NCBI GenBank assembly: GCA_015063005.1
Contig: SUTF01000003.1
Coordinates: 124,001-188,000, forward strand
Direction of reading: 5' to 3'
Length of the DNA stretch: 64,000 bases
Source of the DNA: Methanobrevibacter millerae
GTDB lineage: Archaea > Methanobacteriota > Methanobacteria > Methanobacteriales > Methanobacteriaceae
In this document: piece after piece, positions 11,314 to 37,879 of the stretch
How the letters are laid out: the number at the start of each line of letters is the position of its first letter
How positions within the stretch are numbered: position 1 is the first letter of the stretch
Translations under genes and position numbers: made by a program
The notes under the pieces: model-generated
What the model saw: the letters and a program-made list of their open reading frames with translations, nothing else
Databases searched by the model: none
What the model was told of the DNA's origin: nothing

Positions 11314-11331
11314 ATTTAGGTATGACTAAAT
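11314..11331. promoter_or_regulatory. DtxR-like box upstream of the ferredoxin gene
   Basis: ATTTAGGTATGACTAAAT is a pseudo-palindrome (TTTAGG-N4-ACTAAA) resembling operators of metal-dependent DtxR/MntR regulators. On the minus strand it is directly followed by an ATATTTATAC TATA-like segment, so a bound repressor would block TBP. The identical 18 bases occur at 37862-37879. Confidence 0.55.
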
Positions 11332-11358
11332 TTTTAGAGAGTAACTTATAAAAACACA

Positions 11359-11601
11359 TTAATTTACATTAATGCAATCGTTAGGACAAATTGCCTCACA
11401 GACCCTGCAATACTTGCATGTAATTGGGTTTCTAACAACAGTCAAATCCCCATCCTTAACTAAAACCTTGTTCGGACATGCAATTACGCATTTCTCACAA
11501 TCCGCACCCTTACAGTTGTCATTGTCTATGTCAATGTGAGATTCTACACTTTCCTTTTCGTTTTTATCCTTGTTTCTTTTAAAAAATGAACCTAAACCCA
11601 T
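11359..11601 (-). CDS. Small 4Fe-4S ferredoxin
   Basis: The 80-residue protein has a charged N-terminus (FFKRNKDKNEKE) and then two Cys clusters, CKGADCEKCVIACP and CKYCRVCEAICP. The first has a four-residue rather than two-residue gap between the first cysteines. The pattern fits a dicluster ferredoxin. It lies about 100 bp upstream of the other ferredoxin gene in the same direction, with the DtxR-like box between them. Confidence 0.85.
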   Translation of the reverse strand: MGLGSFFKRNKDKNEKESVESHIDIDNDNCKGADCEKCVIACPNKVLVKDGDLTVVRNPITCKYCRVCEAICPNDCINVN

Positions 11602-11637
11602 GATAAATATTATATGAATAGCTGTTAATAACTGTTT

Positions 11638-12342
11638 TCAATCATATCCCTGTGACTCCAGATAGTCATCGATTTTAGGGTTATCCCCATATTCATAGTG
11701 GTCATAGTACCAGTCAGGATCATTTCTTGCTATGGTTGAAGGTGAAGTATCTACACCGTAATGGCTGGATGAACCAGAAGATGGATAATATTCATGATAA
11801 TTAACATCAGACCTGTTTAAATTTAATATCTTATAAAGCAAATCATTCAAATCATAATTATGATGATTATTGTCCAGGATTATTCCATACACCATTTTGT
11901 TTTGGGGATTGTACTTGAGACAGTATATCGCATACATGGAATTGACTCCAAATATATCTCCATAATCATAAGAAACCTTTGATAAATCATTAACTTCCAA
12001 ATCCATATCATTTAGGGGAGCCTTCCACACAATAGCATAGCATTTTTTGCCCACAGTATCTACAAAACTGACATTTCTGGCATCTTTCCATTTCAACACA
12101 GTATTTGATGATACTTTAACTTCACCGTCAGGGATTTTTTCATTTTTGTATTCCAGAGCATCCTCTATTGTAGCTATCATGTATCCGTCCTAGCCAATAT
12201 CCAGAATAACCTTATCATCAAAACCCGCATAGCTTGGAGGTGATGTCAAATAGATAACTCCACCAATAAGCAATCCCAGAACGAATAATATTACAAAGAC
12301 GTATGCACCAAACTTCAAAAGTTTTTTTAAAATTTCCATCAT
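11638..12342 (-). pseudogene. Small membrane-anchored protein interrupted by in-frame TAG
   Basis: From the ATG at 12342 the frame encodes a 50-residue segment with one membrane helix (about residues 12-32, VFVILFVLGLLIGGVIYL). It then meets TAG at 12192-12190 and continues in the same frame to 11638, with a Met at 12180 opening a 180-residue remainder. The uninterrupted product would be about 234 residues: a membrane anchor, a soluble domain and an Asp/Tyr/Ser-rich tail (SSGSSSHYG, DWYYDHYEYG). The family is not recognised. The tail style resembles the secreted protein at 14951-15448. The TAG may be a nonsense mutation, a sequencing error or a readthrough site. Pyrrolysine insertion is not expected in Methanobrevibacter. 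Confidence 0.65.
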
Positions 12343-12372
12343 AAAATTATTGTGTTTAAGTTGTTAATATAG

Positions 12373-12903
12373 TTAATCAATTAAATCAAAAACTTCATCC
12401 AGACTGTTAGCAACATCAAATATATCCAATGCACCATGTCTGATTAATCCCTGATTGTGCATATCCTCAAGCATGTCAACCATCTTGTCATAAAAATGAT
12501 TGATATTGAAAAGAATGATTTTTTTGGAGTGTCTGTGGAGATATTTTAATGTCAACACTTCAAAAAACTCATCAAGAGTGCCAATACCTCCAGGAACAAT
12601 GATAAAGACATCTGATTTTTCTAAAAATAAGTTCTTTCGCTCATCCATGGACTCAGTTTTTATGTATTCACTGCAATTCTTAAAGTCATCATCAAACTCC
12701 ACAATCCATTCAGGAGCAATGCCTGTGACATTACCTCCATTTTCAAATACTCCTAAAGCAACTGCACCCATCATTCCATCGTTTCCACCGCCGAAAACCA
12801 ATGAATGATTATTTTGGGCTATTCTAGACCCTAATTCATAACCAACATCCGTAAACTCTTTTGGAGTATCCTTGCTTCCAGATCCATATAGACAAATTTT
12901 CAT
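12373..12903 (-). CDS. LOG family protein (Rossmann fold, PGGxGT motif)
   Basis: The roughly 176-residue protein has the family start KICLYGSGS, the nucleotide loop FGGGNDGMMG, and PGGIGTLDEFFE near residue 103. That motif defines the LOG/TIGR00730 group, often mislabelled lysine decarboxylase. Characterised members cleave nucleoside 5'-monophosphates (for example cytokinin ribotides) to base and ribose phosphate; the archaeal substrate is unknown. The ATG at 12903 is preferred to an upstream in-frame TTG at 12924. It is divergent from the archaetidylserine synthase gene, 63 bp away. Confidence 0.88.
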   Translation of the reverse strand: MKICLYGSGSKDTPKEFTDVGYELGSRIAQNNHSLVFGGGNDGMMGAVALGVFENGGNVTGIAPEWIVEFDDDFKNCSEYIKTESMDERKNLFLEKSDVFIIVPGGIGTLDEFFEVLTLKYLHRHSKKIILFNINHFYDKMVDMLEDMHNQGLIRHGALDIFDVANSLDEVFDLID

Positions 12904-12966
12904 ATCTTTAAATATGTAGGTCAAAATAATTAAATATTAAAGATAATAATTCCAAATATTATATTA

Positions 12967-13647
12967 ATGAATACTAAAATACAAGATTTCATAGCAATAT
13001 CAGACTTCGTTTCTTTAATGAACTTATGCTGCGGAATTCTATCAGTAATATTATCAATAAATCATAACTTTTACATGGCAGCAATTTTTATGATTCTGTC
13101 ATTGCTTTTTGATTCAGTGGACGGATGGGTTGCTCGAAAAACAAACAGAATAGATGTGTATGAATTCGGTAAAAATATCGACTCCCTATCAGACATCGTT
13201 TCATTTGGAGTTGCACCAGCAGTCTTTTTATACTCACATACTTTGATGAATTCACCATTTCTTGAAATTCCAACAATCATCGTTTCATTGATTATTGTAA
13301 TCTGTGGCGTTTTAAGATTAACAAGGTATAATGTTATTTCAAATGAAGTGGAAGGATTCATTGGCTTTCCAATTCCTGGAGTAGCTCTAATAATAGCAAC
13401 ATTTTACTTAAGCGGTCTTTTTAATATTTACTTAGCATTAATATTAGCAACTATTGTTTCACTAGCAATGATTTGCAATAAGCCATATGAGAAATTCAAC
13501 AATCTCTACTTATTGATTCTAAATTGCTTATGCATAATACTAATTATACTTCAAATTCCACTTAAAATTGGATTTGTCAATGTTCCTGCATCAATTGTCC
13601 TTTTGACGAGTCTGGCATATTTATTTATTAACTTACTTAATGATTAA
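12967..13647 (+). CDS. CDP-alcohol phosphatidyltransferase, probable archaetidylserine synthase
   Basis: The 226-residue multi-spanning membrane protein carries the CDP-alcohol phosphotransferase signature DSVDGWVARK...GKNIDSLSD (D-x2-DG-x2-AR ... G-x3-D-x3-D). The spacing between AR and G is 10 residues. The PssA-like continuation IVSFGVAPA favours archaetidylserine synthase, which joins L-serine to CDP-archaeol in lipid synthesis. The stop codon overlaps the start region of the next gene. Confidence 0.88.
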   Translation: MNTKIQDFIAISDFVSLMNLCCGILSVILSINHNFYMAAIFMILSLLFDSVDGWVARKTNRIDVYEFGKNIDSLSDIVSFGVAPAVFLYSHTLMNSPFLEIPTIIVSLIIVICGVLRLTRYNVISNEVEGFIGFPIPGVALIIATFYLSGLFNIYLALILATIVSLAMICNKPYEKFNNLYLLILNCLCIILIILQIPLKIGFVNVPASIVLLTSLAYLFINLLND

Positions 13648-14350
13648 CATGAAAAAAAGATACATTATACTATTAATAGTGATACTTGTAATTGGAATAT
13701 CCTCATTTATTTATTTCAACGATTACTATCATGCGGACAGCACCGCATTAAAATACATCAATGGAAGTGAAAACGTAACCGTCAATAAAACAGCAAACGG
13801 CCTTTTGCTTGACGGGCCAGGAAATGATTCAGCATTGATTTTCTATCCCGGCGCAAAGGTGGAATACACATCATACTTAGCACTTATGAATGAGATTGCC
13901 GAAAAGGGTGTTGATGCATACATCGTTGAAATGCCATTTAACATCGCATTTTTTGGCTCAAACAGTGCAGATGACATTATAAAAGATTCAAACTATCCAC
14001 ATTACTTTTTATCTGGTCATTCTTTAGGTGGTGTTGTCGCATCAGGCTATGTTGCCAAACACAATGTTGATGGACTTGTATTGCTTGCAGCATATCCGAC
14101 AGAAGAAATCAACAAACCCGTACTTTCAATATATGGATCTGAAGATAAGGTATTAAATCTAGAAAAATATAATGAAGCTAAGCCATTGATGAAAGGAAAT
14201 TTCACTGAATTCATAGTTAATGGTGGAAATCATGCCCAATTTGCCAACTACGGCAATCAGTCAGGTGATGGAATAGCCACTGTCAACTCAACTGTTCAGC
14301 AGAATATTACTGCAAATCAGATAATGGATTTCATTAGGGCTTTAGTTTAA
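13640..14350 (+). CDS. Membrane-anchored alpha/beta hydrolase
   Basis: The 236-residue protein has an N-terminal membrane helix (YIILLIVILVIGISSFIYF) and then an alpha/beta hydrolase domain. The nucleophile elbow is GHSLGG (Ser near residue 132), an Asp is at YGSEDKV and a His at GGNHAQF. This completes a Ser-Asp-His triad, probably facing outside the membrane. The substrate is unknown. The first ATG at 13640 overlaps the upstream stop; the ATG at 13649 begins directly with the basic MKKRY of the anchor and may be the true start. It is co-transcribed with the lipid synthase, which hints at a lipid or envelope substrate. Confidence 0.8.
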   Translation: MINMKKRYIILLIVILVIGISSFIYFNDYYHADSTALKYINGSENVTVNKTANGLLLDGPGNDSALIFYPGAKVEYTSYLALMNEIAEKGVDAYIVEMPFNIAFFGSNSADDIIKDSNYPHYFLSGHSLGGVVASGYVAKHNVDGLVLLAAYPTEEINKPVLSIYGSEDKVLNLEKYNEAKPLMKGNFTEFIVNGGNHAQFANYGNQSGDGIATVNSTVQQNITANQIMDFIRALV

Positions 14351-14950
14351 AATCCTATCCAAATCCTTTATCATCAGCAATAATCTGGCCAGTATGAATG
14401 CCACTCCAAAAATGAGGACTAACCAAAACACTGTCATGAAAAGAGGTTGTTCATATACCTTCAAAAAGGGATATGGACCTACCACTATTTTTTCCACATT
14501 CAATATAATCAGAATTATTCCATAAGCTATTGTGAAATATATCGCCCTCAAGTTGTTTTTGAAAGTGTTTTCCAAATCATTCCTTTCAAAAAGTATAAAG
14601 GATATGCAAGCAAGTATCGGGCATAATACATGAACATAAATAGCCGGACCATCCAGGAGCAAGAAGTGATAATTGAAATCATACATTGGCATGAGAACAA
14701 AAATAACCACCAAAAACGTTATCAGCACAGACAATGTTGATGAATACTTGAAAAGCTGTACAATTCGCGGAGTATTCTTTCTAAAAGCTAGATACAATAT
14801 GCATGAAATAAAAAGAAATAGATTTGAATCAATTGTGTAGTATGTCAAATCTATACTGCCCACAGATTCCATGAAGATTATGCAAGCAATAATCTCCAGT
14901 ACAATTATGACTACATTCAATGCAATGTCAACGCCAAACTTATTTTTCAT
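14342..14950 (-). CDS. Six-helix membrane protein, Pr6Pr-like
   Basis: The 202-residue protein has about six hydrophobic segments and the pattern YYTIDSNLFLF after the first helix, resembling the Y(F)T-x-SNLL signature of the Pr6Pr/FAR-17a-like membrane family. No catalytic role is known. Its ATG follows the stop of the secreted protein gene upstream with no gap. The 3' end overlaps the convergent hydrolase gene by 9 bp. Confidence 0.65.
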   Translation of the reverse strand: MKNKFGVDIALNVVIIVLEIIACIIFMESVGSIDLTYYTIDSNLFLFISCILYLAFRKNTPRIVQLFKYSSTLSVLITFLVVIFVLMPMYDFNYHFLLLDGPAIYVHVLCPILACISFILFERNDLENTFKNNLRAIYFTIAYGIILIILNVEKIVVGPYPFLKVYEQPLFMTVFWLVLIFGVAFILARLLLMIKDLDRILN

Positions 14951-15448
14951 TTAATACCATTCCCCGTCATAGGTACGAGGATCATCGTATATCTCCTCAT
15001 CCCAATAGTTATCATAGATATATTCATCCATCCTAAGACTATCTCCATAATTATGGTTATCATAATAATTGTATGGGGAATTAGATCTGCCCCCTGCAGT
15101 TACTGTGATTGTTTTAGTCAGAGAGCATGGATTATACTTGTCATTTCCCTTGAAGTTAACTGTTATTACATAATTTCCATTTGTTGTTCCTAAGAAGAAT
15201 ATATTCTGACCAGTATTGTTAAGCGTTTTTGTAGGTAAAGTCCTTACAGCACCGTTAGGCTTTGTTATGCTTATTGAAAATTTTACTATTGGAATTGGAT
15301 TATTTGAAGAATCCTTAAGTGTTATTATAGCCGAATAACCAGATTGATCTTTATCTATTTCAAAATGTGCATCTTCCTTTGCGGATACAAATGACATTCC
15401 AAAAATGAAGATACATAACACAATTAATATCAAAAATATATTACGCAT
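14951..15448 (-). CDS. Secreted protein with one Ig-like domain
   Basis: The 165-residue protein has a signal peptide (FLILIVLCIFIFGMSFVSA, cleavage near 24) followed by one Ig-like beta-sandwich of about 90 residues ending YVITVNFKGNDKYNP...TKTITVTA. That is the same style as the repeats in the giant surface proteins of this window. The tail is rich in Tyr, Asp and Asn (SPYNYYDNHNYGDS). The protein is probably released or wall-associated. It forms a two-gene unit with the Pr6Pr-like protein. Confidence 0.7.
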   Translation of the reverse strand: MRNIFLILIVLCIFIFGMSFVSAKEDAHFEIDKDQSGYSAIITLKDSSNNPIPIVKFSISITKPNGAVRTLPTKTLNNTGQNIFFLGTTNGNYVITVNFKGNDKYNPCSLTKTITVTAGGRSNSPYNYYDNHNYGDSLRMDEYIYDNYWDEEIYDDPRTYDGEWY

Positions 15449-15517
15449 GTTACTATATTATGTTTATCTTTATATATAAAGATTAACTTTTAATAGAGGA
15501 ACAACAAATTAAAGTTT

Positions 15518-16147
15518 ATGAAAATTTCAGAGGAAATAAAGGAAGCGTTAATTGAAAACAAAAAGATTTTTTACATGCTAATGATATTATTTGCCATAGG
15601 ATTTGTCATAGCATTCATTATGGCTGACGATATAGCTCCCGTTTTAATGCCAATGCTTAAGGAAGCCCTGCTTGAAGGGAATGTAACTTCAATAGATGCT
15701 TTCAGCATAATGTTTCACAACCTGAAATCCGCAATAACTATATTTTTTGCATCAACACTATTTGGAATATTTGCAGTAATATCCATAATAGCCAATGGAT
15801 TTGTAGTGGGATTCATGGCAGGCTATACCGTTAAATCATTCAATACACTGATTATATTTTTAGCATTAATACTTCCCCACGGGATTATTGAAATTCCGGC
15901 ATTATTCTTAAGCTGTGCAAGCGGAATACAATTGTTCCTATTCATATTCAGAGTCCTAAAAGATAAAATTAATCATTATTCATTCGCTGAAGCCTACCAA
16001 AACAACAAAAAGACATTGAAACATATTTTGATTTTAATGTCAATAGCTATTCTATTATTTGTAATAGCTGCCTTGATTGAAGGGTTCATTACACCACAGT
16101 TAGGCAATATAGCAAGCCAGCAAATGGGCGGTTCAAAATTATTTTAA
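15518..16147 (+). CDS. SpoIIM/DUF95 family membrane protein
   Basis: The 209-residue protein has about five membrane helices and the family signature LPHGIIEIPALFLS after the third, as in SpoIIM/DUF95 proteins. Archaeal members have no established role; in spore formers SpoIIM belongs to the septal peptidoglycan machinery. A second, diverged family member lies at 22362-23009. The 3' end overlaps the convergent truncated ATPase gene by four bases. Confidence 0.82.
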   Translation: MKISEEIKEALIENKKIFYMLMILFAIGFVIAFIMADDIAPVLMPMLKEALLEGNVTSIDAFSIMFHNLKSAITIFFASTLFGIFAVISIIANGFVVGFMAGYTVKSFNTLIIFLALILPHGIIEIPALFLSCASGIQLFLFIFRVLKDKINHYSFAEAYQNNKKTLKHILILMSIAILLFVIAALIEGFITPQLGNIASQQMGGSKLF

Positions 16148-16689: not shown

Positions 16690-16770
16690 ATAAAAAACGA
16701 TACTAGTTCAAAAAACTATACTTAACCATACAAGTATAAAAAATTATACTAATTCAATAAATTATACTAA
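16687..16770. repeat. Cluster of AGTATA/TATACT half-sites
   Basis: Two inverted repeats stand out: AGTAT-N8-ATACT at 16687-16704 and the perfect AGTATAA-AAAA-TTATACT at 16733-16750. Extra TATACT half-sites occur at about 16717 and 16763. The cluster lies upstream of the truncated ATPase. It could be its old operator or simply AT-rich drift. Confidence 0.45.
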
Positions 16771-25649: not shown

Positions 25650-25670
25650 ATAGAGGTTTAAAACCCCTAT
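25650..25670 (-). terminator. Stem-loop terminator after the surface protein operon
   Basis: On the minus strand ATAGGGGTTT pairs with AAACCTCTAT (one G-U wobble) and is followed by TTATTTTTTTT. It includes the end of the surface protein gene. Confidence 0.65.
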
Positions 25671-28600
25671 AATATTGTAATTTTATTAGAAATGGAATAT
25701 CCATTATAGATTGAAGTAATGATATATTCTCCAGCCATCAGATTAATGTTAAGACTGGCAACACCATTGCTTGCAGTAGTCCTATTGTAAAATACTCCAT
25801 TAATATTGAACTCGACCATTGCATCAGCCAAAGGATTTCCGACACCATCAAGGACTCTTGCCTTAAATTGATCAGAACTTCCATAATTTTTAGTCATGTC
25901 TTCGCCATACAGGACAGAGATTACATGGATATTATTGGACACCATGCAGCCTTTATATTCCGCAGTGATGATATAATCTCCAGGAGGCAGATTGATATTC
26001 AACTTGACATGTCCGGTAGCATTGCTTATGCGAGAGTAGAATACACCATTGATGTTGAATGTGACTTTTTCACCAGCGATAGGATTTCCATCATCACCAA
26101 TAACACGAACAACATATTGGGTATCGTTTTTATAGTATTTTATGATGTTGTGATTATCCATGAATCTTGACAGGACCACAATAGTGTTGGAGTATTGTTC
26201 TGTAGTATTTGAATTTATAGCTGTTAGGATGTATTCTCCAGGATTTAAATTAATGTTTAACCTTGCAACTCCGTTTTCATCAGTAGTACGGTTATAGAAT
26301 ACTCCATTAATGTTAAATGATACCTGTGTAGTTTTCAATGGATTGCCGTTGACATCAAGGAAAGTTGCATAATATTGTGAATCGTTTCTATAAACCTTAG
26401 TTAAGTTTTCACCGAATATAGTATCCTTGACAAAAACGTTTACCGTAATGCTTTCGGGAGCATACTTGTCATTTCCAAGATAGCTAATTTCAACAGCATA
26501 ATCTCCACGATTCAAGTTTAAAGCTATTGATGCCAAACCCTCTGAATCAGTGGTTCTGTTATATTTAACACCATTGATTAAAATGATTATTGTTTCACCG
26601 GATATTGGATTACCGGCATTATCACTCATAGTTACACTTAATCTTTGACTACCACCATAATATTTTATGACATCAGATGCATTCAAAATAACCTTGGAAT
26701 CGGAATCCACAACATTCAAAGTGGAATTGGCAGTTGCATCATTGTATTTTGAATCTTTTTTATATTCCACAGTGAAATCATAGGCACCGATTGGCAAGTC
26801 AGGTATCTCCACAGTAGCGATGCCATTATTTGCTTTGGCTGTATATGATTTACCTGCAATAACAACACTTATCTCCCCATCAGCATCAGGCATTAGATTA
26901 ACGTTGATTATTGCTACATCTCCTTCGACAATGTTTTTTGCATCAACGCCAAGATTAATGTCTTTTTTGGTTACGTTGAATGATGTTTGTGATGTGGCTG
27001 AAGAGTATTTGTCATCACCGTCAAATGTAGCAACGGCATCGTATTTTCCAACAGCAATTTCATCTTTAATTTCAACTGTTCCCTTACCTTTTGAAACTGA
27101 TACATTATAGGACTTACCGTTAATTAATACAGAAACATTTCCATTAATCTCATCATTCATTATGATATTGGCTGTCAATGGAGAATCTACAATAATATCG
27201 GCAATATTCAATTCCAAATTAGGGTCTAATTTATTGACTGTAATCTTAGATGTTGTGTTTGCTTGAGGATGCTGGTCATTGCCCAAGTAAGATGCGAATA
27301 CATATACAATACCTGTTTCATTGAATGCTAAAGTTAAATTAGCTATTCCGTTGGAAATAGTGCTTAAATAATTATTTCCATTTATGATAAACATTACGCT
27401 TCCATTTTCTATTAATTCATTGTTTTGGTCACGGACAATAGCCGAAATTACAGTCGGTGCATTTATTTGCGTTGCAATATTATTCACTTTAATGCTTGTT
27501 GTGTTCAATCCGCTGCTTCTTGTGTATGCTTTGATACATGCTACCTGTGAAGCGTACCTGTGTTCAATTTCAGGGTCGTCAAATACATAATCAAAACAGT
27601 CTATCCAGTTTTTAGCGTCGTAACTGAAATATGAAATTCCTTCACCATAGGTCAATCTTGATGCAGTTACAATTTCAAATATAGGAAAACTCGCCATTGA
27701 AGGTGCATCTATCCTGATTTGAATAGTGAAGTTATCTCCAACATTTAAGAGGAATTCTGTATCGAATGGGATTGTATAATATCCCAGTGTCGCTGAACCG
27801 TTTTGTGTTAACACCAATTCATCATTTATGAATAGGGAAACTTCATAATTAGAGTTCTGTTCGAAGAAGGTTCCGAATGCAGAGAGTATGTCATTTCCAA
27901 TAGATGTGAAAGTATTTTTATAGTATACGGTCTTTTCATGAGTTATAAGGAAATCTGTCATACCTCCGATATCATATTGGTAGTTTCTGTTGTATCTGAC
28001 TGTATCGTTTAAAATGAATGTATATGCATTATGGGAATTGTTTAATGCATAGACTATAGGGTCACAGTATGAAACATAGAAGTATCCTTCATCTCCCCAT
28101 CCGGTTCCCCAACTGTTTTTCACAATCCATGCGCCGTCGCATTCAGCCATGTCACCCATAGGGAAATTACTTTTTGGATATGTATCATCCCATCCGACTA
28201 TTGTTACGGCATGGTTAGGAGAATATCCTCCAAATACATAGTAATATGCTGCTTTATCCTCATTCCATACCAATGGATTTGTCTGATCCATGAATATGTT
28301 CACCGCTACAGCACCATAGTCAAGAATAGCCCTTTTCATTGCATCATTATCTGAATATGAAGTACGTGCAGGCAAATAGTAGACGTTCTGAACATGCATT
28401 ACCGGATCCAACAATGTGGATAATGTGGATAAATCATCATACTTGTCGTCACTTTCCAAAACAGGACCTATCCAACTTAAAAGGTTTCCATAAGTCATTT
28501 CATCATGTCCTCCTTCATTGGTTGAATATTTCCATCCATATGCTGAGTACAGTTCGACCAGGTTTTTAACGTTTTCTTCAGACAAATCATAGGAAATGCC

Positions 28601-30025
28601 TGTTGCCTTCAAGATACATGATTCCAAAGCAGCTATTCCTGCAAATGCCCAACAATTTCCACCGGCTTGCTGATCCCTTATTGGTGTGGACAATCCGTTT
28701 TCAACCAGACTGTATCTGGATGGCAAAACTCCTGTATATGAAGAGTTATATTTCATCATTGTATAATTGGAATTATAATCTATGTCGTATTCATATCCTT
28801 TTTGGTCATGTATAATAGTGTCGTCGCCTGCAACGTTATTTTCAAAGTCAACATCATTTAAAACCAGATGGTTGTTATTTGAAAATATTGCTCCACCTTT
28901 TCTTATTGCGGATGTGTCTTTTATCTTAACGTTATTCATTTCAGTTGAGGTACAGTTATCAATAAATATTGCGCCTCCGTCACGTGCTTCAGCAAGTGTA
29001 ATGTTTGAATTTCTTAATGAGAACTTACCATACATCTGATAGATTGCTCCACCTTCGAGTTTTGCAGTGTTGTTGTTGAAATTACAGTTTGAAATGTCAA
29101 GCACTGCATTTAAATTACATATTGCTCCACCGAAATCACCATGCCCATTAGAGAAATCAGTATTTTTAACAGTTAAATTTGTAACTTTTGCATATATCGC
29201 TCCACCTGCATCGCCTTCTGCATAGCAGTCATCGAAAATACAGTTTTCTATTATTATGCTTCCACCATCGGTAGCCAATACTCCACCATAAAGCTGGGAG
29301 TGGCTGTCATAGAATTTTGAGTTTTTAATTACTGTTACACCATTCTTATGATATATTGATCCTCCATAAACTGCTGAATTGTTCATGAATGTACAGTTAT
29401 CCAGAGTCAAATATGAGGGCATTCCATATCCTGCAAAATAAATTGAACCTGGACTGTATATGGCTCCTCCAAAAATGTCATTATATTCTGGAGATTTGTA
29501 ATATGCATCAGCTCCACGTCCATTTTTGAATATGACGTTGTGCGCCTCCAAGGTTCCCTGGTTTTGAATAACGGCACAGTCAAAAGTCATGTCCCAGACA
29601 TAAAGTCTAGCATTGTCATTTACAAAAATAGGAACAGTTCCAAAGGTTGACTTTAAGATGGTTCCTTCAGCACTTTCCCCATAAAATTTTACCTGTGTTG
29701 TTTCACTGTTTGAAAAAATGTCAATCAGTTCATCTATTTCATAGACACCATTTGCAAAGTATGCGGTATCACCATATTCAATTCTTGCATTTGTAACATA
29801 TTTATATGGATTTGCCTTAGACCCATCACCATCATTTGCAGAGGATGCATTGAAGTATATAACCTCCTCAAATGCAAGAACATCATCATTATTCACCATT
29901 GTTACTATTTCATCATTAATATCGCTTGTCTGACTAGCGTTTGCCATGTCTTCAGCGTTTACTGCTGAGATTGAAACAAAGCATAATATTAACAATGCAA
30001 AAATCATTATCTTTTTTATTTTCAT
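25667..30025 (-). CDS. Giant adhesin-like protein with beta-helix, papain-like protease and Ig-like repeats (A)
   Basis: The 1452-residue exported protein has a signal peptide (to about residue 24). A right-handed beta-helix (about 55-410) carries repeated GGAI(Y/F/C) turns. A C1A papain-like domain has Cys458 in GGNCWAF, His605 in SPNHAVTIVGWDD and Asn637 in VKNSWGTGWG, with the oxyanion Gln in RDQQAGG. Ig-like repeats follow from about 885. The last 335 residues form the four-repeat module (FNINGVFYNRTT...LNINL) shared with the other three giants here, ending NKITIL without a membrane helix. It starts 28 bp after protein B with AGGAG upstream, so they share a message. The protease may process surface partners or foreign peptides; this is inference. 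Confidence 0.88.
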   Translation of the reverse strand: MKIKKIMIFALLILCFVSISAVNAEDMANASQTSDINDEIVTMVNNDDVLAFEEVIYFNASSANDGDGSKANPYKYVTNARIEYGDTAYFANGVYEIDELIDIFSNSETTQVKFYGESAEGTILKSTFGTVPIFVNDNARLYVWDMTFDCAVIQNQGTLEAHNVIFKNGRGADAYYKSPEYNDIFGGAIYSPGSIYFAGYGMPSYLTLDNCTFMNNSAVYGGSIYHKNGVTVIKNSKFYDSHSQLYGGVLATDGGSIIIENCIFDDCYAEGDAGGAIYAKVTNLTVKNTDFSNGHGDFGGAICNLNAVLDISNCNFNNNTAKLEGGAIYQMYGKFSLRNSNITLAEARDGGAIFIDNCTSTEMNNVKIKDTSAIRKGGAIFSNNNHLVLNDVDFENNVAGDDTIIHDQKGYEYDIDYNSNYTMMKYNSSYTGVLPSRYSLVENGLSTPIRDQQAGGNCWAFAGIAALESCILKATGISYDLSEENVKNLVELYSAYGWKYSTNEGGHDEMTYGNLLSWIGPVLESDDKYDDLSTLSTLLDPVMHVQNVYYLPARTSYSDNDAMKRAILDYGAVAVNIFMDQTNPLVWNEDKAAYYYVFGGYSPNHAVTIVGWDDTYPKSNFPMGDMAECDGAWIVKNSWGTGWGDEGYFYVSYCDPIVYALNNSHNAYTFILNDTVRYNRNYQYDIGGMTDFLITHEKTVYYKNTFTSIGNDILSAFGTFFEQNSNYEVSLFINDELVLTQNGSATLGYYTIPFDTEFLLNVGDNFTIQIRIDAPSMASFPIFEIVTASRLTYGEGISYFSYDAKNWIDCFDYVFDDPEIEHRYASQVACIKAYTRSSGLNTTSIKVNNIATQINAPTVISAIVRDQNNELIENGSVMFIINGNNYLSTISNGIANLTLAFNETGIVYVFASYLGNDQHPQANTTSKITVNKLDPNLELNIADIIVDSPLTANIIMNDEINGNVSVLINGKSYNVSVSKGKGTVEIKDEIAVGKYDAVATFDGDDKYSSATSQTSFNVTKKDINLGVDAKNIVEGDVAIINVNLMPDADGEISVVIAGKSYTAKANNGIATVEIPDLPIGAYDFTVEYKKDSKYNDATANSTLNVVDSDSKVILNASDVIKYYGGSQRLSVTMSDNAGNPISGETIIILINGVKYNRTTDSEGLASIALNLNRGDYAVEISYLGNDKYAPESITVNVFVKDTIFGENLTKVYRNDSQYYATFLDVNGNPLKTTQVSFNINGVFYNRTTDENGVARLNINLNPGEYILTAINSNTTEQYSNTIVVLSRFMDNHNIIKYYKNDTQYVVRVIGDDGNPIAGEKVTFNINGVFYSRISNATGHVKLNINLPPGDYIITAEYKGCMVSNNIHVISVLYGEDMTKNYGSSDQFKARVLDGVGNPLADAMVEFNINGVFYNRTTASNGVASLNINLMAGEYIITSIYNGYSISNKITIL

Positions 30026-30053
30026 TTATTTCTCTCCTTAAAATGATAAATCA

Positions 30054-33000
30054 TCAGTTAATTGTTATTTTATTAGATATGTTTAATTCATTATAAGATG
30101 AAGTGATTATATACTCTCCACTTTGAAGATTGATGTTTAAGAGTGCTTCACCTAATGAATCAGTAAATCTGTCATAGAATACTCCATTAATATTGAATGT
30201 TATTTTTTGATTTGAAGCAGGTTTTCCCTGATTATCAAATGCGTTAACTTTGAATTTGCTTCCATCACGGTAGATCATGACCAAATCTTCACCAACAATC
30301 GTAGGCAATACGGAAATATTGTTGGATATCTTAAATGATCCATATTCTGCAGTTATTATATAATCGCCTGGAGCTAAATTGATATTCAGTTTTACATGAC
30401 CAGTATCATTAGTTTTTCTTTCATAAAATACTCCGTTAATATTGAATTTGACTATTTCACCTGATTTTGCATAACTTCCGTCATTGTTTACTAATCTGAC
30501 AACATACTGTGAATCGTTTCTATAGTATTTCACCAAATCATGATTTTCAACAATTCTTGGAAGAACAGTAATATTGTTAGACGCCATTTGATTGGATAAT
30601 GGATTATATGCAGTAATTATATAATTTCCTTGATTTAAATTAATATTTAATCTTGCAATTCCATTTTCATCTGTAGTACGGTTATAAAATACTCCATTGA
30701 TGTTAAATGTCACTACATTATTTTTTATAAGATTGCCTTCACTGTCTAGGAACTGAGCATAATACTGGCTTTCATTTCTGTACACTTTCACCAAATCATT
30801 TGCAAGTACAGTATCTTTAATAGTGACCATCGCATTCTTAGAAATATTATCACAAGTCACCATTATATCATAGCTTCCTTGATTTAAATTTAGTCCTATT
30901 GAAGCAATACCTTCACTATCAGTTTTGCGTGTATATGCAACACCATTAATTGATATGTTTACAGTCATATTCTCCAATGCATCACCATTAGAATTGCTAA
31001 CAGAAACAATCAACCTTTCACTGCCTCCATAATACTTGACCACATCTGAAACATCAACCAGAATACTTTCATCAGTAACATTATCCTGAGTGATGTTGGT
31101 ATCATTTTCAGGAGTGATATTGGTATCGTTTTGCGGTGTGACATTTTCAATAGGAATGACCTCTTTTTTAGTTACATTGAAAACTCCAGTGAATTTTGAA
31201 GCATTATAATAATCATTTCCACCATACTCTACAGTGTATGAATATGCATTTGCATTTAAATCACTGATTTTCACATTTGCTTTCCCATTGCTTATGAATG
31301 CCAAATATTGCTTTTCATTGATATTTATATAAACGACACCTGAAGCATCATTTTTCAATGTAATATTTACAATAGCAATTTGACCCTCTTCAATGTCACC
31401 GCATTCAGCAGTTAAATTAGGATTTGCCTTTAAAACACTGAAACTAGTTGAGTTATTTGAACTTAAGAAATATTCATTACCTTCAAATTCTGCACTTACC
31501 TGATAATTGCCAACTTTCAAATCAGAGATATCCAATATGGCTACACCATCATCAATCCCTATTTCATATTCCCTTGAATTGATTTTAATGCTGATGCTTC
31601 CTGAATTAATATTAGAAACTTCAGCGATGACAGTTGCATTATTGCCATAGATGACATCATCAACATGCACTTTCAATACAGATTTTTGCTTCAATACAGA
31701 AACATTACATGAATCTCTTGCAGACAAATAATCTGAATTTTCACCAGTATTGGCATTTATAGTATAATTTCCAGGTTTTAAATTAGAAATAACCAAATTG
31801 TTTTTAACAAAATAGTTATTGCCATTGACACTTATTATTACCGGCAGAGAAACATCCTCACCATCATTATTTGTCAAAGAAATATTTACAGCCAAATCCT
31901 CGCCATAAACTATATCACTTGAAATGATTTTCAAATTAAGAGAATCCTTGATTGTAATACTCTTAGAAGTATAAGAAGGATTATATTTATTATTTCCAGT
32001 ATAATTTGCCTCAATCAGGTGAATTCCATGATTAATTGATATGTCTATTTGAGATTTTCCGTTGATTACATCCCCGACATAGCTTTTTCCGTCAACCTTA
32101 AATTCAACATTACCTCCATTAACAACGGCACCGGCAGCAGTTACGCTGGCTATGATATGGGTGGATGAAGCTTCGGTTATTTCAATTGATGTATCCTTTG
32201 CAATTTCCTCTTGTTCGGATGCATTTTCATTTAAAACTGTATAAGCCTTAATGCATGCAACTTGTGAGGAATACTTATGGCCATAGCTATCAGCTATTGA
32301 ATAATCGCTTAAATCAGTCCAAGATTTACCGTCATAGCTGAAATATGAAACTCCTTTTGAATAAAATGCCTTTGAAGCAGAATACTCTTTCAAATGTTCT
32401 GAAATCATGAAGCTTGCATAGCCATTGCAGGAAATTTTAAGTTCTATTGTAAATTTATCGCCGCTTCTAAGTGAAACAGGAGTTTTCAAATTAATTGTAT
32501 AATATCCCATTCCTGAAATTCCATTTTGCGTGAGTTTCAAATCATCATTCACATATATTTTAGCCTCCCAGTTGGTTCTGCTTGCATTGAAGTAAGTACC
32601 GAATGCTGAAAGATACTCATCATCAGTGGATGTGAAAGTATTTTTATAATAAATGGTATTTTTACCTGTTACAAAGTAATCTGTCCATCCTGCAGGATCA
32701 TACTGGTAATTCTTATCAAATTTGACAGTATCATTTAAAATGAATGTGAAAGTGTTTTGAGGCTTGTTGATTTGAGCACAGCTTGTATCATAGTATGAAA
32801 CATAACCGAATCCGCTGTTTTGAACACCCCACTGATTTCCATAACTATTTTTAATAATCCATGCCCCATCACCAGCAGGAGTGGATGGGAAATTATATCT
32901 TGAGAAGGTATCGTCCCAGCCGACAATTGCAATTGCATGGTTTATATCGCCGCCTCCACTATAGTAATATCCTCCGGTTGAAGGACTGTAATAGGCACCA

Positions 33001-34712
33001 CTGTTTACAAAATAGATTTCAGAAGCAACAGCACCATATTTCATTATTGCCTCTTTAATCGCATTATTATCAGTATATGATGAACGCTGCAGGAACAGGA
33101 TATTGTTCACATGCATCAGACTGTCCATAACAGGTGAGATTACATCATTGTCATCAGTCAAATCCTGGCTTTCAAGCACCGGACCCAACCAGCTTAAAAG
33201 ATAACCTGTACTCATCCTATAAAATCCTCCATCATTTGTCTCATACTGCCAACCGTAATCAGAGAAATACTGAGCAAGATTTTTCAGATTGCCTTCAGAC
33301 AAATCAAATTCAGTTCCTGTAGCCTTTAAAATACATGATTCTAAAGTGGCCATAGTAGCATAAGCCCAGCAGTTACCACTATTAGCCTGATTTCTAATTG
33401 CAGATACCTGATTATAGTTACGCAAATCGAATTTGGAAGGAAGAGATCCTGCATATGCCGATTTGTATTGCATCAAAAGATAATCATCACTTGTGATTAT
33501 TGCATTGCCTATATCGCAGACATACTTGTCATCCTCATATTTAGCCCTATTTTGATTGAAGGTAGGATTTGAAAAGATATTTGCAATATTTGCATAGGCA
33601 AAGATAGCTCCTCCCACCTCACTGGCAACATTATTATTGAATTTAGAGTCCTTAACATAGAATGTTGTCAAATTGTCTGCAAAAATAGCTCCACCATTTT
33701 TAGCCATGTTTGAATCAAAAGTTGAGGAAGTCACCTTAAGATATCCATATAAAGAATATATTGCTCCTCCCTGATAGCTAGCATTATTGTTTTTAGCAAT
33801 AATATTATCCATAGTTAAAGTAGAATTCAGTCCAGTGACGGCAGGACCATAGAAAGATGAGGAGTCCGTGAAATTTGAATTTGTTATTGTTGCCTTAGAA
33901 TTGATTATGTAAACTGATCCTCCAGCATCATATTTTGACCTGTCATTTTTGAACTCACAATTATTGATTGTAGCACTGGCTCCTTTTAAAATGGCTATTG
34001 CTCCACCGAATTGTGTTGCTTCATTATCTATGAACTTACAATTATTCAGATTCACTGTTCCGGAAGATGCATAAATTGCACCACCATATTCCGCATGATT
34101 ATTCCTAAATATTGTATTTTGAGCTATAATCTTTGCTGATGAAGACAAAGTCGAGCTCATGGACACTGCTCCACCATAATTGTTTCCATAATTATCTGAA
34201 GAAACCCCTTTGGCGTTTTCAATTATTGAATTGGCCAAATCCAAAGTTCCATCAACCTTAAAGTTTGCACCCTGAATGGTCAAGCCCTTAATTGATATTG
34301 TGTTTCCAGAGGATGCTGTTAGAAAGGTATCTGATCCAGTATATTTGATTATAGTATTGTCTGCACCATTTCCCTCAAATGCAGCAGAACCGTAAAAGAA
34401 AAATGAGGGTCCGCTATCCAGCTGATAAGTTCCGCTTGCAAAAACATGCCTTGCATCACCGGAAATTCTACTTGAGGTCAAATATTTATAAGGACTTGAT
34501 TGAGTACCGCTACCGTCCGTTTTGGCAGAAGCATCAAAATAATATGTATAATAATAATCACCCAAGCTTTCACTGCCATCAATAGGTGTGGAAACAATAT
34601 CATTTGACACAATAGTCATATTGTTGTCAACACCATCATCCACAGCAGACACCGGGACAATAAGCAATGAAAGGAAAAGCAAAATTATTAAAAATTTATT
34701 TATAAAAGACAT
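30054..34712 (-). CDS. Giant adhesin-like protein with beta-helix, papain-like protease and Ig-like repeats (B)
   Basis: The 1552-residue paralogue of protein A has the same order: signal peptide (to about 24), beta-helix with GGAIY/GGAIF turns (about 60-400), papain-like domain, Ig-like repeats and the four-repeat C-terminal module ending NKITIN. The triad is complete: Cys448 in SGNCWAYA, His592 in INHAIAIVGWDD and Asn622 in IKNSYGNQWG. A Thr/Asn/Pro linker with NDTNIT sequons (about 1195-1215) could be glycosylated. AGGGGATAATA precedes the ATG. It is the first gene of a two-gene unit with protein A; a stem-loop separates it from protein C upstream. Confidence 0.88.
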   Translation of the reverse strand: MSFINKFLIILLFLSLLIVPVSAVDDGVDNNMTIVSNDIVSTPIDGSESLGDYYYTYYFDASAKTDGSGTQSSPYKYLTSSRISGDARHVFASGTYQLDSGPSFFFYGSAAFEGNGADNTIIKYTGSDTFLTASSGNTISIKGLTIQGANFKVDGTLDLANSIIENAKGVSSDNYGNNYGGAVSMSSTLSSSAKIIAQNTIFRNNHAEYGGAIYASSGTVNLNNCKFIDNEATQFGGAIAILKGASATINNCEFKNDRSKYDAGGSVYIINSKATITNSNFTDSSSFYGPAVTGLNSTLTMDNIIAKNNNASYQGGAIYSLYGYLKVTSSTFDSNMAKNGGAIFADNLTTFYVKDSKFNNNVASEVGGAIFAYANIANIFSNPTFNQNRAKYEDDKYVCDIGNAIITSDDYLLMQYKSAYAGSLPSKFDLRNYNQVSAIRNQANSGNCWAYATMATLESCILKATGTEFDLSEGNLKNLAQYFSDYGWQYETNDGGFYRMSTGYLLSWLGPVLESQDLTDDNDVISPVMDSLMHVNNILFLQRSSYTDNNAIKEAIMKYGAVASEIYFVNSGAYYSPSTGGYYYSGGGDINHAIAIVGWDDTFSRYNFPSTPAGDGAWIIKNSYGNQWGVQNSGFGYVSYYDTSCAQINKPQNTFTFILNDTVKFDKNYQYDPAGWTDYFVTGKNTIYYKNTFTSTDDEYLSAFGTYFNASRTNWEAKIYVNDDLKLTQNGISGMGYYTINLKTPVSLRSGDKFTIELKISCNGYASFMISEHLKEYSASKAFYSKGVSYFSYDGKSWTDLSDYSIADSYGHKYSSQVACIKAYTVLNENASEQEEIAKDTSIEITEASSTHIIASVTAAGAVVNGGNVEFKVDGKSYVGDVINGKSQIDISINHGIHLIEANYTGNNKYNPSYTSKSITIKDSLNLKIISSDIVYGEDLAVNISLTNNDGEDVSLPVIISVNGNNYFVKNNLVISNLKPGNYTINANTGENSDYLSARDSCNVSVLKQKSVLKVHVDDVIYGNNATVIAEVSNINSGSISIKINSREYEIGIDDGVAILDISDLKVGNYQVSAEFEGNEYFLSSNNSTSFSVLKANPNLTAECGDIEEGQIAIVNITLKNDASGVVYININEKQYLAFISNGKANVKISDLNANAYSYTVEYGGNDYYNASKFTGVFNVTKKEVIPIENVTPQNDTNITPENDTNITQDNVTDESILVDVSDVVKYYGGSERLIVSVSNSNGDALENMTVNISINGVAYTRKTDSEGIASIGLNLNQGSYDIMVTCDNISKNAMVTIKDTVLANDLVKVYRNESQYYAQFLDSEGNLIKNNVVTFNINGVFYNRTTDENGIARLNINLNQGNYIITAYNPLSNQMASNNITVLPRIVENHDLVKYYRNDSQYVVRLVNNDGSYAKSGEIVKFNINGVFYERKTNDTGHVKLNINLAPGDYIITAEYGSFKISNNISVLPTIVGEDLVMIYRDGSKFKVNAFDNQGKPASNQKITFNINGVFYDRFTDSLGEALLNINLQSGEYIITSSYNELNISNKITIN

Positions 34713-34745
34713 TATTATCCCCTTAAATTAAATAAAAAAAGAAAA

Positions 34746-34766
34746 AATAGCTTGAATTAAGCTATT
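34746..34766 (-). terminator. Stem-loop terminator after surface protein C
   Basis: AATAGCTT and AAGCTATT form an 8-bp stem. The stop codon of protein C lies at the loop edge and a T run follows on the minus strand. Confidence 0.7.
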
Positions 34767-37700
34767 GTAATTTTATTTGATTTGTTTAAAGTTCCATAGG
34801 TTGTAGTTATAATATATTCTCCTTTTTGAAGATTAATGTTTAAACTAGCCAATCCATTAGCATCTGTTGTTCTATCATATAAAACACCATTAATATTAAA
34901 TGAAACAGATTGATTTGGATTAGGATTACCTTGATTGTCAAGAACTGTTACATTAAATTTAGTGCCATCCAAATAATTCATTTCCAAATCCTCAGACACA
35001 ATAGTGGATAAAACTTTGACATTATTGGATACCTGACAGTCATTATATTCTGCAGTGATAATATAATCTCCAGGTTCAAGATTAATGTTTAGTTTAACCC
35101 AACCATCACTGTCAGTGGTTCTTGTATAGAATACACCGTTAATGTTGAATGTTGCATTAACACCAGCACCTACAGGTTTGCCATCATAACCCCATAATCT
35201 AGCCTTATATGGAGTTGCATTGCGGTAATATTTAACTACATTCTCATTGTCTGTAATTGTAGGCAATACAGTTACAGTGTTTCCCTTAACCTCACCAGTT
35301 ACAGGATTGAATGCTGTGATAATATATTCCCCCTGGCGGAGATTGATATTTAATCTTGCATATCCAGACAAATCGGTAGTACGATTATAGAATACTCCAT
35401 TAATGTTGAATGATGCATTAACGCCGCTGACAGGAGTTCCATTGAAATCTAAAATCAATGCCACATATTGTGTACCGTTTCTGAAAATCTTAGTAATGTT
35501 TTTTGAAACTATTGTTGTTTTAACGTTGATTTTGCTTGAAACATTTAAAGCATTGTATTTATCAGAACCTGCATATGAAACATCTACATCATAAATACCG
35601 CTGTCCAAATTAATTGCCATTGACGCCAAACCGTTTTCATCCGTTTTTCTTGTATAATCCCTTCCATTAAGGTTTATGTTAATTGTTTCACCTGAAATTG
35701 GATTTAGCTTTTCATCAGTTAATCTCACAACAAATCTGGAGCCGTCATGATAATACATTTCCAACTCATCAGCAGACAATATAATATCAGTTAATTCAGT
35801 GTCATTTGATGGAGTCACATTTGTATCGTTAACCGGATCCACTGGAGTTACATTAGTATCATTTACAGGATCTACAGGAGTCACGTTAGTATCATTTACA
35901 GGATCTACAGGAGTGACATTAGTATCATTGACAATTTTTTCAATTACCTTAAAAGGAACCTTTTTGGAAACGCTTGAATTATACTTTTCGCTGCCGAGAT
36001 ATTTGACTTGAACAGTATAATCGCCTGTTTCAGTTAGAATAAAGTTATATGATTTAGCTGCTTGTGTAGTTGTAATTAAAATATCATTAATATATATTTC
36101 AACATTGCCTTCACTTACAGAAGCACCGTCTTTATCTGTTACCTTAGGAGTAATGATTATATTGTCACCAGACACTATTTCAGGAAGATTGACTGATACA
36201 TCACTAACAGTTGCCAATACACTATCAGTTACATTGTCATCAGTAGTATTGTCTGTAGTGTTAGTGTCAGTGGTATTATCATCAGTTGCATTATCTCCGG
36301 TAGAGTTATCATCAGTAGTGTTATCAATAGGACCATCATCCTCGAAAACAACAGTTATTGTAATAGTGGATGATGAACTTGGATTATACTCATCATTACC
36401 TAAATAATATGCCTTGATATCATATGTTGAAGGCAGGAATGGATAGTATTCATAACTTTCACCAACATTGATGGTAGTCATGTTCATATCCAAAACGGAA
36501 ATGGCCACACGACCTGAAGTCACAGGTTTGTTATTCTTGTCAGTTACCTTAGGAGTAATCAATACCTTATTGCCATAAAGAACCTTTGTTGCATTTACAT
36601 TGATAGTTGTAACTGTATCCATTGATTCGACAGGTCCAACATCATCTTTGGTTACATTAATCTGAACTGAATTGGATCTGCTTGATTTGTGTGATGCATC
36701 AGCCAAGAATTCCGCGTAAACCTCAACAGTACCTACATCAGAAGGAGTTATTGTGTATGTCTGGCCTACATTTATTGTAGCAACTTTTGAATTGTCAACA
36801 TAAATGTTAATATATCCGCTGGTTATCTCATTATTATTTGAATCATATACTGAAGGAGTAATAAGTGCGCTTTCACCCAATTTCAAGTTTAAAGGATCTG
36901 CATCAATAGTTATGGAGGTATTTTGAGTGGTATTTTCATCAGCTTCAGCAACATAATATGCCAAAACGTTACTTGTTGCATTGGATAGGTGTTCATTTCC
37001 TTTATAGAATGCAGTGAAATTATACCATCCAGGTTCAGTGAATGCTAATGTTGCGCCGTTAGCCCATTGACCGTTAGGACTGACTGCAATTTGACCCAAA
37101 TATTCACCATTCATATATATTGATAAAAATTCATTAATTGAACTTTGCCCTTCCTTATTGGTCTTTGAAATTAAATCAGATATGGAGTTTCCAAGCTCTG
37201 CACTGGATAAATTGTTTAGGATAACTCCTTTATCTCCAATATTTTTATATATTACACTGCTTGAAGTGGAATTGTCATATAATTTCAAAGATGTCTGATA
37301 AGTCTTGTTAGTATCAATTGGAGTGCTTCCGCCCCCAATGATGTAAGTTAAGGTATTACTTGTAACTTGTCCAAAAATAGATGTTGAGTGAGCATATACA
37401 GTGTATGTACCTGCTTCAGTAAATGTAAAAGTTACGCCGTTTGATTTTGCTACAGAAACATAAGCAACAGCCTGACTATATCCGTTAATGTTTAGATAAA
37501 AGATATCACTATCACTGGAAAGAACATATGGCCTTACATTCAATGTTACAGAACCGGTACCTCTTGTGATTCTATCCGAATCAGGATATTGACTATCACT
37601 TATTGTTATTTCACCATCCCCAATGATTGAATCATCATTGGAAACTTGATAAATTTCATTGCTTTGAGATGAAATTTCAACATTATTAGTTAATATCGTT

Positions 37701-37843
37701 TCATTTTCATCAATTTCACTTGCTGAGACTGCACTAATGCAAAATAGTGCTAAAGTCAAAACAATTAGCAAACTAAATATTTTCTTAATATTATAGCCTC
37801 CCGAATTACTATTTAAAAAATCATTTATCGATATAATCTCCAA
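34757..37843 (-). CDS. Large adhesin-like Ig-repeat protein without protease domain (C)
   Basis: The protein has a signal peptide (KKIFSLLIVLTLALFCISAVSA), about five Ig-like domains, a Thr/Asn/Asp linker, a threefold 11-residue NDTNVTPVDPV repeat (DNA about 35818-35930), and the same four-repeat C-terminal module as A, B and D, ending NKITIA. It lacks the beta-helix and the protease. The listed start is a TTG at 37843 without a ribosome-binding site. GGGAGG at 37797-37802 lies seven bases before an in-frame ATT at 37789, which would begin exactly at the signal peptide and give 1010 residues. The 18-bp DtxR-like box is just upstream. It may be a passive wall component or adhesin. Confidence 0.82.
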   Translation of the reverse strand: MEIISINDFLNSNSGGYNIKKIFSLLIVLTLALFCISAVSASEIDENETILTNNVEISSQSNEIYQVSNDDSIIGDGEITISDSQYPDSDRITRGTGSVTLNVRPYVLSSDSDIFYLNINGYSQAVAYVSVAKSNGVTFTFTEAGTYTVYAHSTSIFGQVTSNTLTYIIGGGSTPIDTNKTYQTSLKLYDNSTSSSVIYKNIGDKGVILNNLSSAELGNSISDLISKTNKEGQSSINEFLSIYMNGEYLGQIAVSPNGQWANGATLAFTEPGWYNFTAFYKGNEHLSNATSNVLAYYVAEADENTTQNTSITIDADPLNLKLGESALITPSVYDSNNNEITSGYINIYVDNSKVATINVGQTYTITPSDVGTVEVYAEFLADASHKSSRSNSVQINVTKDDVGPVESMDTVTTINVNATKVLYGNKVLITPKVTDKNNKPVTSGRVAISVLDMNMTTINVGESYEYYPFLPSTYDIKAYYLGNDEYNPSSSSTITITVVFEDDGPIDNTTDDNSTGDNATDDNTTDTNTTDNTTDDNVTDSVLATVSDVSVNLPEIVSGDNIIITPKVTDKDGASVSEGNVEIYINDILITTTQAAKSYNFILTETGDYTVQVKYLGSEKYNSSVSKKVPFKVIEKIVNDTNVTPVDPVNDTNVTPVDPVNDTNVTPVDPVNDTNVTPSNDTELTDIILSADELEMYYHDGSRFVVRLTDEKLNPISGETININLNGRDYTRKTDENGLASMAINLDSGIYDVDVSYAGSDKYNALNVSSKINVKTTIVSKNITKIFRNGTQYVALILDFNGTPVSGVNASFNINGVFYNRTTDLSGYARLNINLRQGEYIITAFNPVTGEVKGNTVTVLPTITDNENVVKYYRNATPYKARLWGYDGKPVGAGVNATFNINGVFYTRTTDSDGWVKLNINLEPGDYIITAEYNDCQVSNNVKVLSTIVSEDLEMNYLDGTKFNVTVLDNQGNPNPNQSVSFNINGVLYDRTTDANGLASLNINLQKGEYIITTTYGTLNKSNKITIA

Positions 37844-37861
37844 AAGACCACATCAATATAT

Positions 37862-37879
37862 ATTTAGGTATGACTAAAT
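37862..37879. promoter_or_regulatory. DtxR-like box upstream of surface protein C
   Basis: The 18 bases are identical to the box at 11314-11331. On the minus strand they run straight into ATATATATTG, a TATA-like segment. The site lies between divergent genes, so it could also affect thyA. Confidence 0.55.

Follow-up and report, generated by a model that had tools for sequence, protein, structure and literature searches.

Why should the same 18 bp, ATTTAGGTATGACTAAAT, stand unchanged at two places in one stretch of an archaeal chromosome, once in front of a ferredoxin gene and once in front of a gene for a giant surface protein? The question is raised by a 64,000-nucleotide stretch of Methanobrevibacter millerae DNA (hereafter the window), which comprises bases 124001-188000 of contig 20 in a genome of 2.16 Mb and 20 contigs. 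The comparisons of sequence described below lead us to a reading in which the 18-mer is probably the operator of an iron-responsive repressor of the DtxR family, with a regulon and an iron-sparing RNA as proposed here. The larger finding is an RNA of the genus that is flanked by predicted iron operators, a candidate archaeal iron-sparing small RNA (sRNA).

A scan of the window located exact copies of ATTTAGGTATGACTAAAT, an imperfect palindrome of the form TTTAGG-N4-CCTAAA, at 11314-11331 (operator 1) and 37862-37879 (operator 2), neither being assigned a strand. Both are oriented leftward, into a TATA-like segment and then a gene on the minus strand. At operator 1 the box TTTATACT (11305-11312, minus strand) follows immediately downstream, and at operator 2 the segment AAATATAT (about 37858-37865, minus strand) overlaps the downstream edge, both boxes having been recognised by eye. 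An earlier reading of the letters alone (the sequence-only reading) had described this arrangement and judged the identity unlikely to be fortuitous, and it holds on both counts: with up to three mismatches allowed, the window contains 3 matches to the 18-mer against 0.18 expected, and none of 100 shuffles reached 3. The two genes that it had named downstream are also there, with corrections, in that the first encodes a 91-amino acid (aa) ferredoxin with two clusters, whose first listed start is TTG, and the surface-protein gene is the first of three.

That shared ancestry or chance alone accounts for the identical 18-mers, with no regulator responding to them, draws some support from the AT-richness of the sequence and from a genome-wide count: the loose pattern TTTAGGNNNNCCTAAA, with at most one mismatch, occurs at 38 places in the M. 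millerae genome (16 of them exact), and its reversed control likewise at 38. Since this count shows no excess, only the tighter motif and the positions of the sites carry weight. The tighter pattern WTTTAGGYATRMCTAAAW gave 8 forward and 0 reversed-control matches in the same genome, and the strict motif gave 283 against 1 across 60 genomes of the genus (table summed by hand), being found in 57 of them. As to position, 34 of the 38 sites fall outside open reading frames (ORFs) of at least 100 aa, and for 21 the start of such an ORF follows within 200 bp. In sequence sampled from two relatives (G013 and G028), where the coding share is 87-88%, 10 of 11 control matches lay inside ORFs as compared with 2 of 6 true matches. 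Together with the equal loose counts, the G013 sample, in which two of three loose sites were inside ORFs (none of three in G028), weighs against the operator reading.

The ferredoxin gene (10983-11258, minus strand; Pfam Fer4 families), the first of the two putatively regulated genes, offers a narrower comparison. A search at E 1e-20 recovered it from 7 of 67 genomes, and in all seven, M. millerae included, a site with at most one mismatch lies no more than 56 bp from the start. The N-terminus of the protein bears a His/Gly-rich stretch, MRARHGGGHGGG, which is similar in relatives and is possibly a metal-binding tail. The gene that comes after the ferredoxin in the window (9887-10828, minus strand) encodes the transcription factor TFB (TFIIB), and a TFB-like gene, identified by eye, is placed likewise in locus L131.

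What else do the sites precede? The sequence-only reading had suggested scanning the genome for near matches before feo, ferredoxin and other iron genes, and had named matches mainly within genes or before unrelated functions as the opposing outcome. That outcome was not seen; sites precede two feoB loci, the window ferredoxin, ABC transporters and the gene of a DtxR-family regulator itself. The transporters, by family assignment, are an ABC exporter with an adjoining AraC-like regulator and a second ABC system. Sites also stand before an LCM-type methyltransferase and an ACR3/bile-acid-type permease, and at a surface-protein gene divergent from cobQ (assigned by eye); the methyltransferase, the permease and cobQ have no obvious link to iron. 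In nine other genomes, 40 site regions were retrieved, taking in every listed site of seven genomes and some of those in G007 and G046, and many of these gene types appear there again. A palindromic site that recurs before metal-homeostasis genes is what would be expected of a DtxR-family operator. Separately, one-mismatch sites were noticed near genes for an F420-hydrogenase, an mvhD-like protein and a formate transporter (named by eye; contigs 13, 5 and 14 of M. millerae, at L054 5637, L056 6437 and L043 6549), and the regulator may directly control these central enzymes of hydrogen and formate metabolism.

The regulator itself is a protein of 234 aa. Among three matches to PF01325 in the M. 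millerae genome, it is the one that spans the whole domain (7.5e-19, positions 2-60 of 60); the other two are partial and lie in frames of 148 and 153 aa that look MarR-like by eye. Along its length it can be aligned with both IdeR and ScaR. We found DtxR relatives at 34 loci in named records, 30 of them labelled Methanobrevibacter and mostly from rumen and gut samples. The operator stands 44-66 bp upstream of the DtxR gene, with one or two mismatches, in 27 of the 28 readable Methanobrevibacter loci, a count that leaves aside two more loci, one masked at this point and one cut off. The DtxR-like shape had been ascribed to the box correctly from its letters, and the genome has a full-length DtxR-family gene with its own upstream site. 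The M. cuticularis DtxR gene has no site, and neither does the one Archaeoglobaceae homologue, and both count against the operator reading. In Methanomassiliicoccales or Thermoplasmata records, TTTCGGTATACCGAAA stands at a similar position in three homologues. Chance or ancestry alone is already contradicted by the genus-wide data and is hardly credible given the window shuffles, the strict-motif excess, the sites at every ferredoxin orthologue and at nearly every readable DtxR gene, and the preference for positions outside ORFs; we have rejected it.

A more substantial question is which metal such a regulator would sense. The sites could be DtxR-family operators of the MntR/ScaR type, answering to manganese or another metal that the ferredoxin, the surface proteins and the RNA would then follow. 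The best Protein Data Bank matches of the regulator (8pvt, labelled an iron dependent repressor, together with ScaR, SloR and others) outrank IdeR, and manganese sensors are known among related proteins; the top NCBIfam match is a MntR model, at 113.9 bits far below its cut-off of 350. Against this, the sites cluster at FeoB/FeoA, and the best predicted targets of the RNA are largely iron proteins by name. Additionally, no NRAMP transporter was noticed at a site, although no search aimed at NRAMP was made. The regulator also has a cysteine, in HDQACEMEH, that aligns with the cysteine of IdeR (1fx7) in HAEACRWEH, the shared motif being AC..EH, where four better-scoring chains (8pvt, 3hrs, 5cvi and 6o5c, ScaR and SloR among them) have glutamate. 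We take this cysteine to mark the iron type (DtxR/IdeR) as opposed to the glutamate of the manganese type. Because of the FeoB targets and the IdeR-aligned cysteine, we favour iron over manganese and regard the protein as a predicted iron repressor; a manganese regulator was rejected as first choice, and control by manganese or another metal is unlikely. That the 18-mer is an iron operator is, as a prediction from sequence, well supported.

The same operator recurs in a second and less expected setting. In several intergenic stretches devoid of genes, sites occur as pairs with a spacing of 69-72 bp, and these are often repeated in tandem. Between the paired sites lie a GAAA resembling the TFB recognition element (BRE) and the box TTTATATA, always in a single fixed orientation; about 25 nt past TTTATATA lies the likely start, which is followed in turn by the second site, by a conserved body and by a U-rich terminator, giving a unit of about 210 nt. 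Single-sequence folds, on which H0 and H2 rest, give the body as many as four hairpins. An unpaired linker between the first and second hairpins reads ACAATCTCCAAAA exactly in 34 of 46 units and CTCCAAA or CTTCAAA in 45, and in the fold of one M. millerae copy its unpaired probability is 0.84-1.0. These 46 units include the 18 from which the model was built; the latter form alignment A1, drawn from 24 units after four with another body and two that had diverged were left out, and alignment A2 was made from 38 loci without the duplicates L165, L170, L174, L182 and L185.

Comparison across the units supports the structure. In hairpin H1, 98.9% of the cells are paired, with 24 compensatory cells, whereas slid controls reached at most 49%. 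Hairpin H3 is paired in 34-46 of 46 units per position, with T-A to C-G changes, a count that leans towards pairing since it picks the best-pairing partner; RNAalifold, applied to the first alignment, found H1 as the sole hairpin. Against dinucleotide shuffles the folding z-score is below -2 in all 46 units (mean -5.5). An operator with at most two mismatches lies upstream of 45 units, and at 40 the pair is spaced 66-74 bp, as compared with 11 of 378 random intergenic windows having any site. By its covariation and folding scores, each unit has the properties predicted for a stand-alone, structured non-coding RNA with its own terminator. None of the 46 lies inside a gene. A peptide-coding unit was rejected, the longest ATG ORF having a median of 9 codons (maximum 27), as was a leader RNA of the next gene, which is convergent at 26 of the 46 and on the same strand within 300 bases at 9. 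A second RNA-like body with different hairpins and ACTCTC segments was seen by eye behind the same two-operator promoter in four units (L041 about 7930-8109, minus strand; L128 about 6018-6200; L141 about 5489-5670; L146 about 4280-4465, minus strand).

Units that are dense in operators and often arranged in tandem, with up to four per array when both bodies are counted, might instead be DNA elements that make no functional RNA, for instance arrays serving as decoys to titrate the repressor, or promoter remnants that have been repeated. A decoy would have no need of compensatory changes in H1 and H3, of strong folding, of a U-rich terminator and a canonical TTTATATA box that keep a single orientation, or of a nearly invariant exposed linker. 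For these reasons we consider such DNA elements very unlikely and read the units as putative RNA genes.

Under filters that lose weak matches, the RNA model had hits in 62 of 67 Methanobrevibacter genomes (36 of the 37 of good quality), at 1-5 copies each, and none of 83 other genomes of the order. The M. millerae copies lie outside the window, three in tandem on contig 7 and one on contig 10. Searched against Rfam, neither the window nor three M. millerae loci (L038, L041 and L042) contained a family at its gathering score; two bacterial sRNA matches obtained at a loose threshold in part of L038 were weak and below that score, and were taken as chance.

What might such an RNA do? At fdhA, the gene for formate dehydrogenase, the Shine-Dalgarno region (TTTTGGAGATTATAAAATG in M. 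millerae) complements the exposed linker. The match of the fdhA leader to the linker complement has at most two mismatches in all 30 fetched loci, and one mismatch in 25; the loci are the top-scoring ones among 54 genomes that have a match, and near relatives therefore dominate. Within them, fdhA positions -16 to -1 are conserved at 0.90-1.0 and most positions further upstream at 0.5-0.75 (the exceptions are -25 and -19). At 11 readable loci outside the genus the fdhA leaders have 2-7 mismatches and pairing energies of -5.9 to -11.9, as compared with -11.7 to -18.2 within the 30. When 347 M. millerae genes were ranked by pairing with the linker, the top six were Mmp3, FdhA, FwdF, a NifU-like protein, IF-1A (by eye) and rubrerythrin. 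The fourth is encoded in the window (7612-8304, minus strand), and its NifU_N match (E 2.2e-4, 21.8 bits) falls just under the Pfam cut-off of 22. A target scan with TTTTGGAGATTGT at up to two mismatches gave 206 matches against 98 for the control; of 30 located matches, three were the RNA genes themselves, and among the 17 others with one mismatch a plausible start followed closely at three, namely those at fdhA, korD and a surface-protein gene.

Several results weigh against pairing with the leaders of iron-sulfur (Fe-S) enzymes, beyond the selection of the fdhA loci. Genes with an Fe-S motif were not enriched among the best-pairing genes in G013 (298 genes), G028 (319) or M. millerae (G000; 347), the top 15 holding 0, 1 and 1 of them, respectively. 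Probes with shuffled flanks that kept CUCC did about as well or better (means 1.0, 0.85 and 1.1). The enrichment test is weak because its regular expression misses FdhA, rubrerythrin and Mmp3; the result nevertheless stays negative, and the target set is accordingly a proposal. Furthermore, the fdhA match is kept in two genomes of the genus (G065 and G062) without a match to the RNA model, and korD, for which 66 genomes have a match, pairs strongly, with one mismatch, in only 12 of the 30 loci fetched. The RNA could thus be real and iron-regulated and yet act otherwise, through protein binding, as an RNA sponge or on targets outside the Fe-S class, the fdhA match being a conserved ribosome-binding site. 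In its favour, any Shine-Dalgarno sequence that contains GGAG pairs with CUCC, the enrichment test was negative, and the two genomes just mentioned keep the match with no RNA detected. Pulling the other way are the conservation at fdhA, which extends beyond GGAG while most upstream positions vary, the poorer pairing of most of the 11 leaders outside the genus, and the identity of the top-ranked M. millerae genes. We see action by another route as a serious though somewhat unlikely possibility.

Taken together, these observations suggest the following model, in which the 18-mer serves as an iron operator and the RNA spares iron. When iron is sufficient, an Fe(II)-bound dimer of the regulator would occupy the TTTAGG-N4-CCTAAA sites, which touch the BRE/TATA region or the transcription start, and would keep TBP and TFB off the promoter; we infer both the part of iron as co-repressor and repression as the sign of control. 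When iron is low the repressor would leave, and FeoB/FeoA, the ABC transporters, the ferredoxin, the surface-protein cluster and the repressor gene would be expressed. The structured RNA of about 210 nt would then also be transcribed, from its promoter between two operators about 70 bp apart. Its exposed CUCC linker would pair with the Shine-Dalgarno regions of iron-rich enzymes, most clearly that of fdhA, and presumably block their translation, thereby saving iron. We regard it as an evenly balanced proposition that this is the first archaeal iron-sparing sRNA, genus-wide and often tandem, DtxR-repressed via two promoter-flanking operators, and with C-rich segments that pair with the Shine-Dalgarno sequences of formate dehydrogenase and other Fe-S enzymes of methanogenesis.

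The giant surface protein behind operator 2 needs a separate answer. It belongs to a cluster of three genes on the minus strand: a secreted protein with Big_3_5 repeats (34757-37843; 1028 aa when counted from TTG 37843), a second protein of 1552 aa 44 bp downstream (30054-34712) and a third of 1452 aa 28 bp further on (25667-30025), the latter two with papain-like C1, lectin-like and Big domains. Given spacings of 44 and 28 bp, we infer that the three are co-transcribed. The real start of the 1028-aa protein is probably ATT at 37787-37789, since the listed TTG lies too near the TATA segment. Four sites in the M. millerae genome stand before secreted Big-domain proteins, namely at the window cluster and at genes on contigs 14, 18 and 1. 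At the contig-18 site both half-sites are perfect, and a further copy that is one base shorter stands across the TATA box, an arrangement that resembles the RNA promoters. The sequence-only reading had tied the surface protein to iron or manganese status. The support for this is positional, at four places of one genome, and a giant surface protein was found behind the site in none of the 40 regions from nine other genomes, which counts against any wider link. On the basis of position, an operator link of the surface proteins is likely in this species; it is unproven beyond it because no fetched site elsewhere precedes a giant surface protein.

The leader of the cluster also contains TTTTGGAGATTAT (37833-37845, minus strand; C20:161833-161845), a candidate pairing partner from the target scan that is complementary to the RNA linker with one mismatch. 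In their leaders, the first gene of the cluster (at this segment) and the surface gene on contig 14 (L036) share a GGAGATTAT(A/G)TCGA-like sequence followed by ATGATTTTTTAAATAG, which is partly complementary to the linker and contains a tiny ORF. The neighbouring gene at 38719-44376, like the two giant proteins of 25667-34712 (minus strand), encodes papain-like C1 and lectin-like domains. A further observation concerns start codons. In a number of secreted-protein genes (window 37787-37801, minus strand; L042, L003, L025, L017, L301 and L317), an in-frame ATT, ATC or ATA stands 7-8 bases after GGAGG, at a spot that has no ATG, and is followed by a basic residue and a signal peptide. Across the fetched DNA the codon there was ATG in 14 cases, ATT in 4, ATC in 4, ATA in 3 and TTG in 1, and some of the cases other than ATG and TTG adjoin an ATG or TTG or fall inside a gene. 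AUH start codons (AUU, AUC or AUA) of surface proteins are thus possible.

How does this system compare with those already known? Methanogens are among the heaviest users of Fe-S proteins, and Methanobrevibacter is a dominant methane maker in the rumen and gut; an operator that can be read from sequence makes for a testable iron regulon in a group whose regulation is poorly known. Archaeal iron regulons of the DtxR family, under FetR, were reportedly described by Leyn and Rodionov in 2015, and MDR1 of Archaeoglobus is an archaeal DtxR-family iron regulator. The FetR and MDR1 regulons share with the present one a palindromic operator with TTAGG/CCTAA half-sites, a core target in FeoAB and autoregulation, whereas here the regulon would also hold a non-coding RNA and species-specific surface proteins. 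We count the operator as a further addition to the known archaeal DtxR operators.

For the RNA, the nearest functional precedents come from Bacteria. RyhB, PrrF and FsrA are made under low iron and down-regulate iron-using enzymes; they differ from the archaeal RNA in being bacterial and chaperone-dependent, and in their repressors, sequences and structures. Among methanogens, sRNA162 (PMC3510493) and sRNA154 of Methanosarcina mazei are likewise regulatory sRNAs; they belong to another order, and the opening lines of their abstracts mention neither iron control nor operator-flanked tandem units. In a review of archaeal regulatory RNAs, iron comes up once, for antisense RNAs of Pyrobaculum (PMC5867862), and no iron-sparing sRNA of Archaea or of Methanobrevibacter was among the literature matches listed. 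The closest likeness is to IsrR of Staphylococcus aureus, which has two Fur boxes, three stem-loops and a terminator, and several single-stranded C-rich regions, pairs at the Shine-Dalgarno sequences of iron enzymes, the fdhA leader among them, and is discussed beside iron sparing of the RyhB/PrrF/FsrA type (PMC9410917). The two would share a metal repressor with two boxes at the promoter, stem-loops with a terminator, C-rich single strands and pairing with the fdhA Shine-Dalgarno sequence, the first and the last being predicted here. IsrR is bacterial, Fur-controlled and experimentally shown, whereas the archaeal RNA is known from its sequence and is often tandem. Regulator and RNA sequence are unrelated, and we claim no homology. 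If our proposal is true, methane metabolism is a post-transcriptional target of iron supply, with formate use and CO2 reduction tuned through RNA, and Archaea invented an iron-sparing sRNA independently of Bacteria, one that matches staphylococcal IsrR by convergence even in having fdhA as a target.

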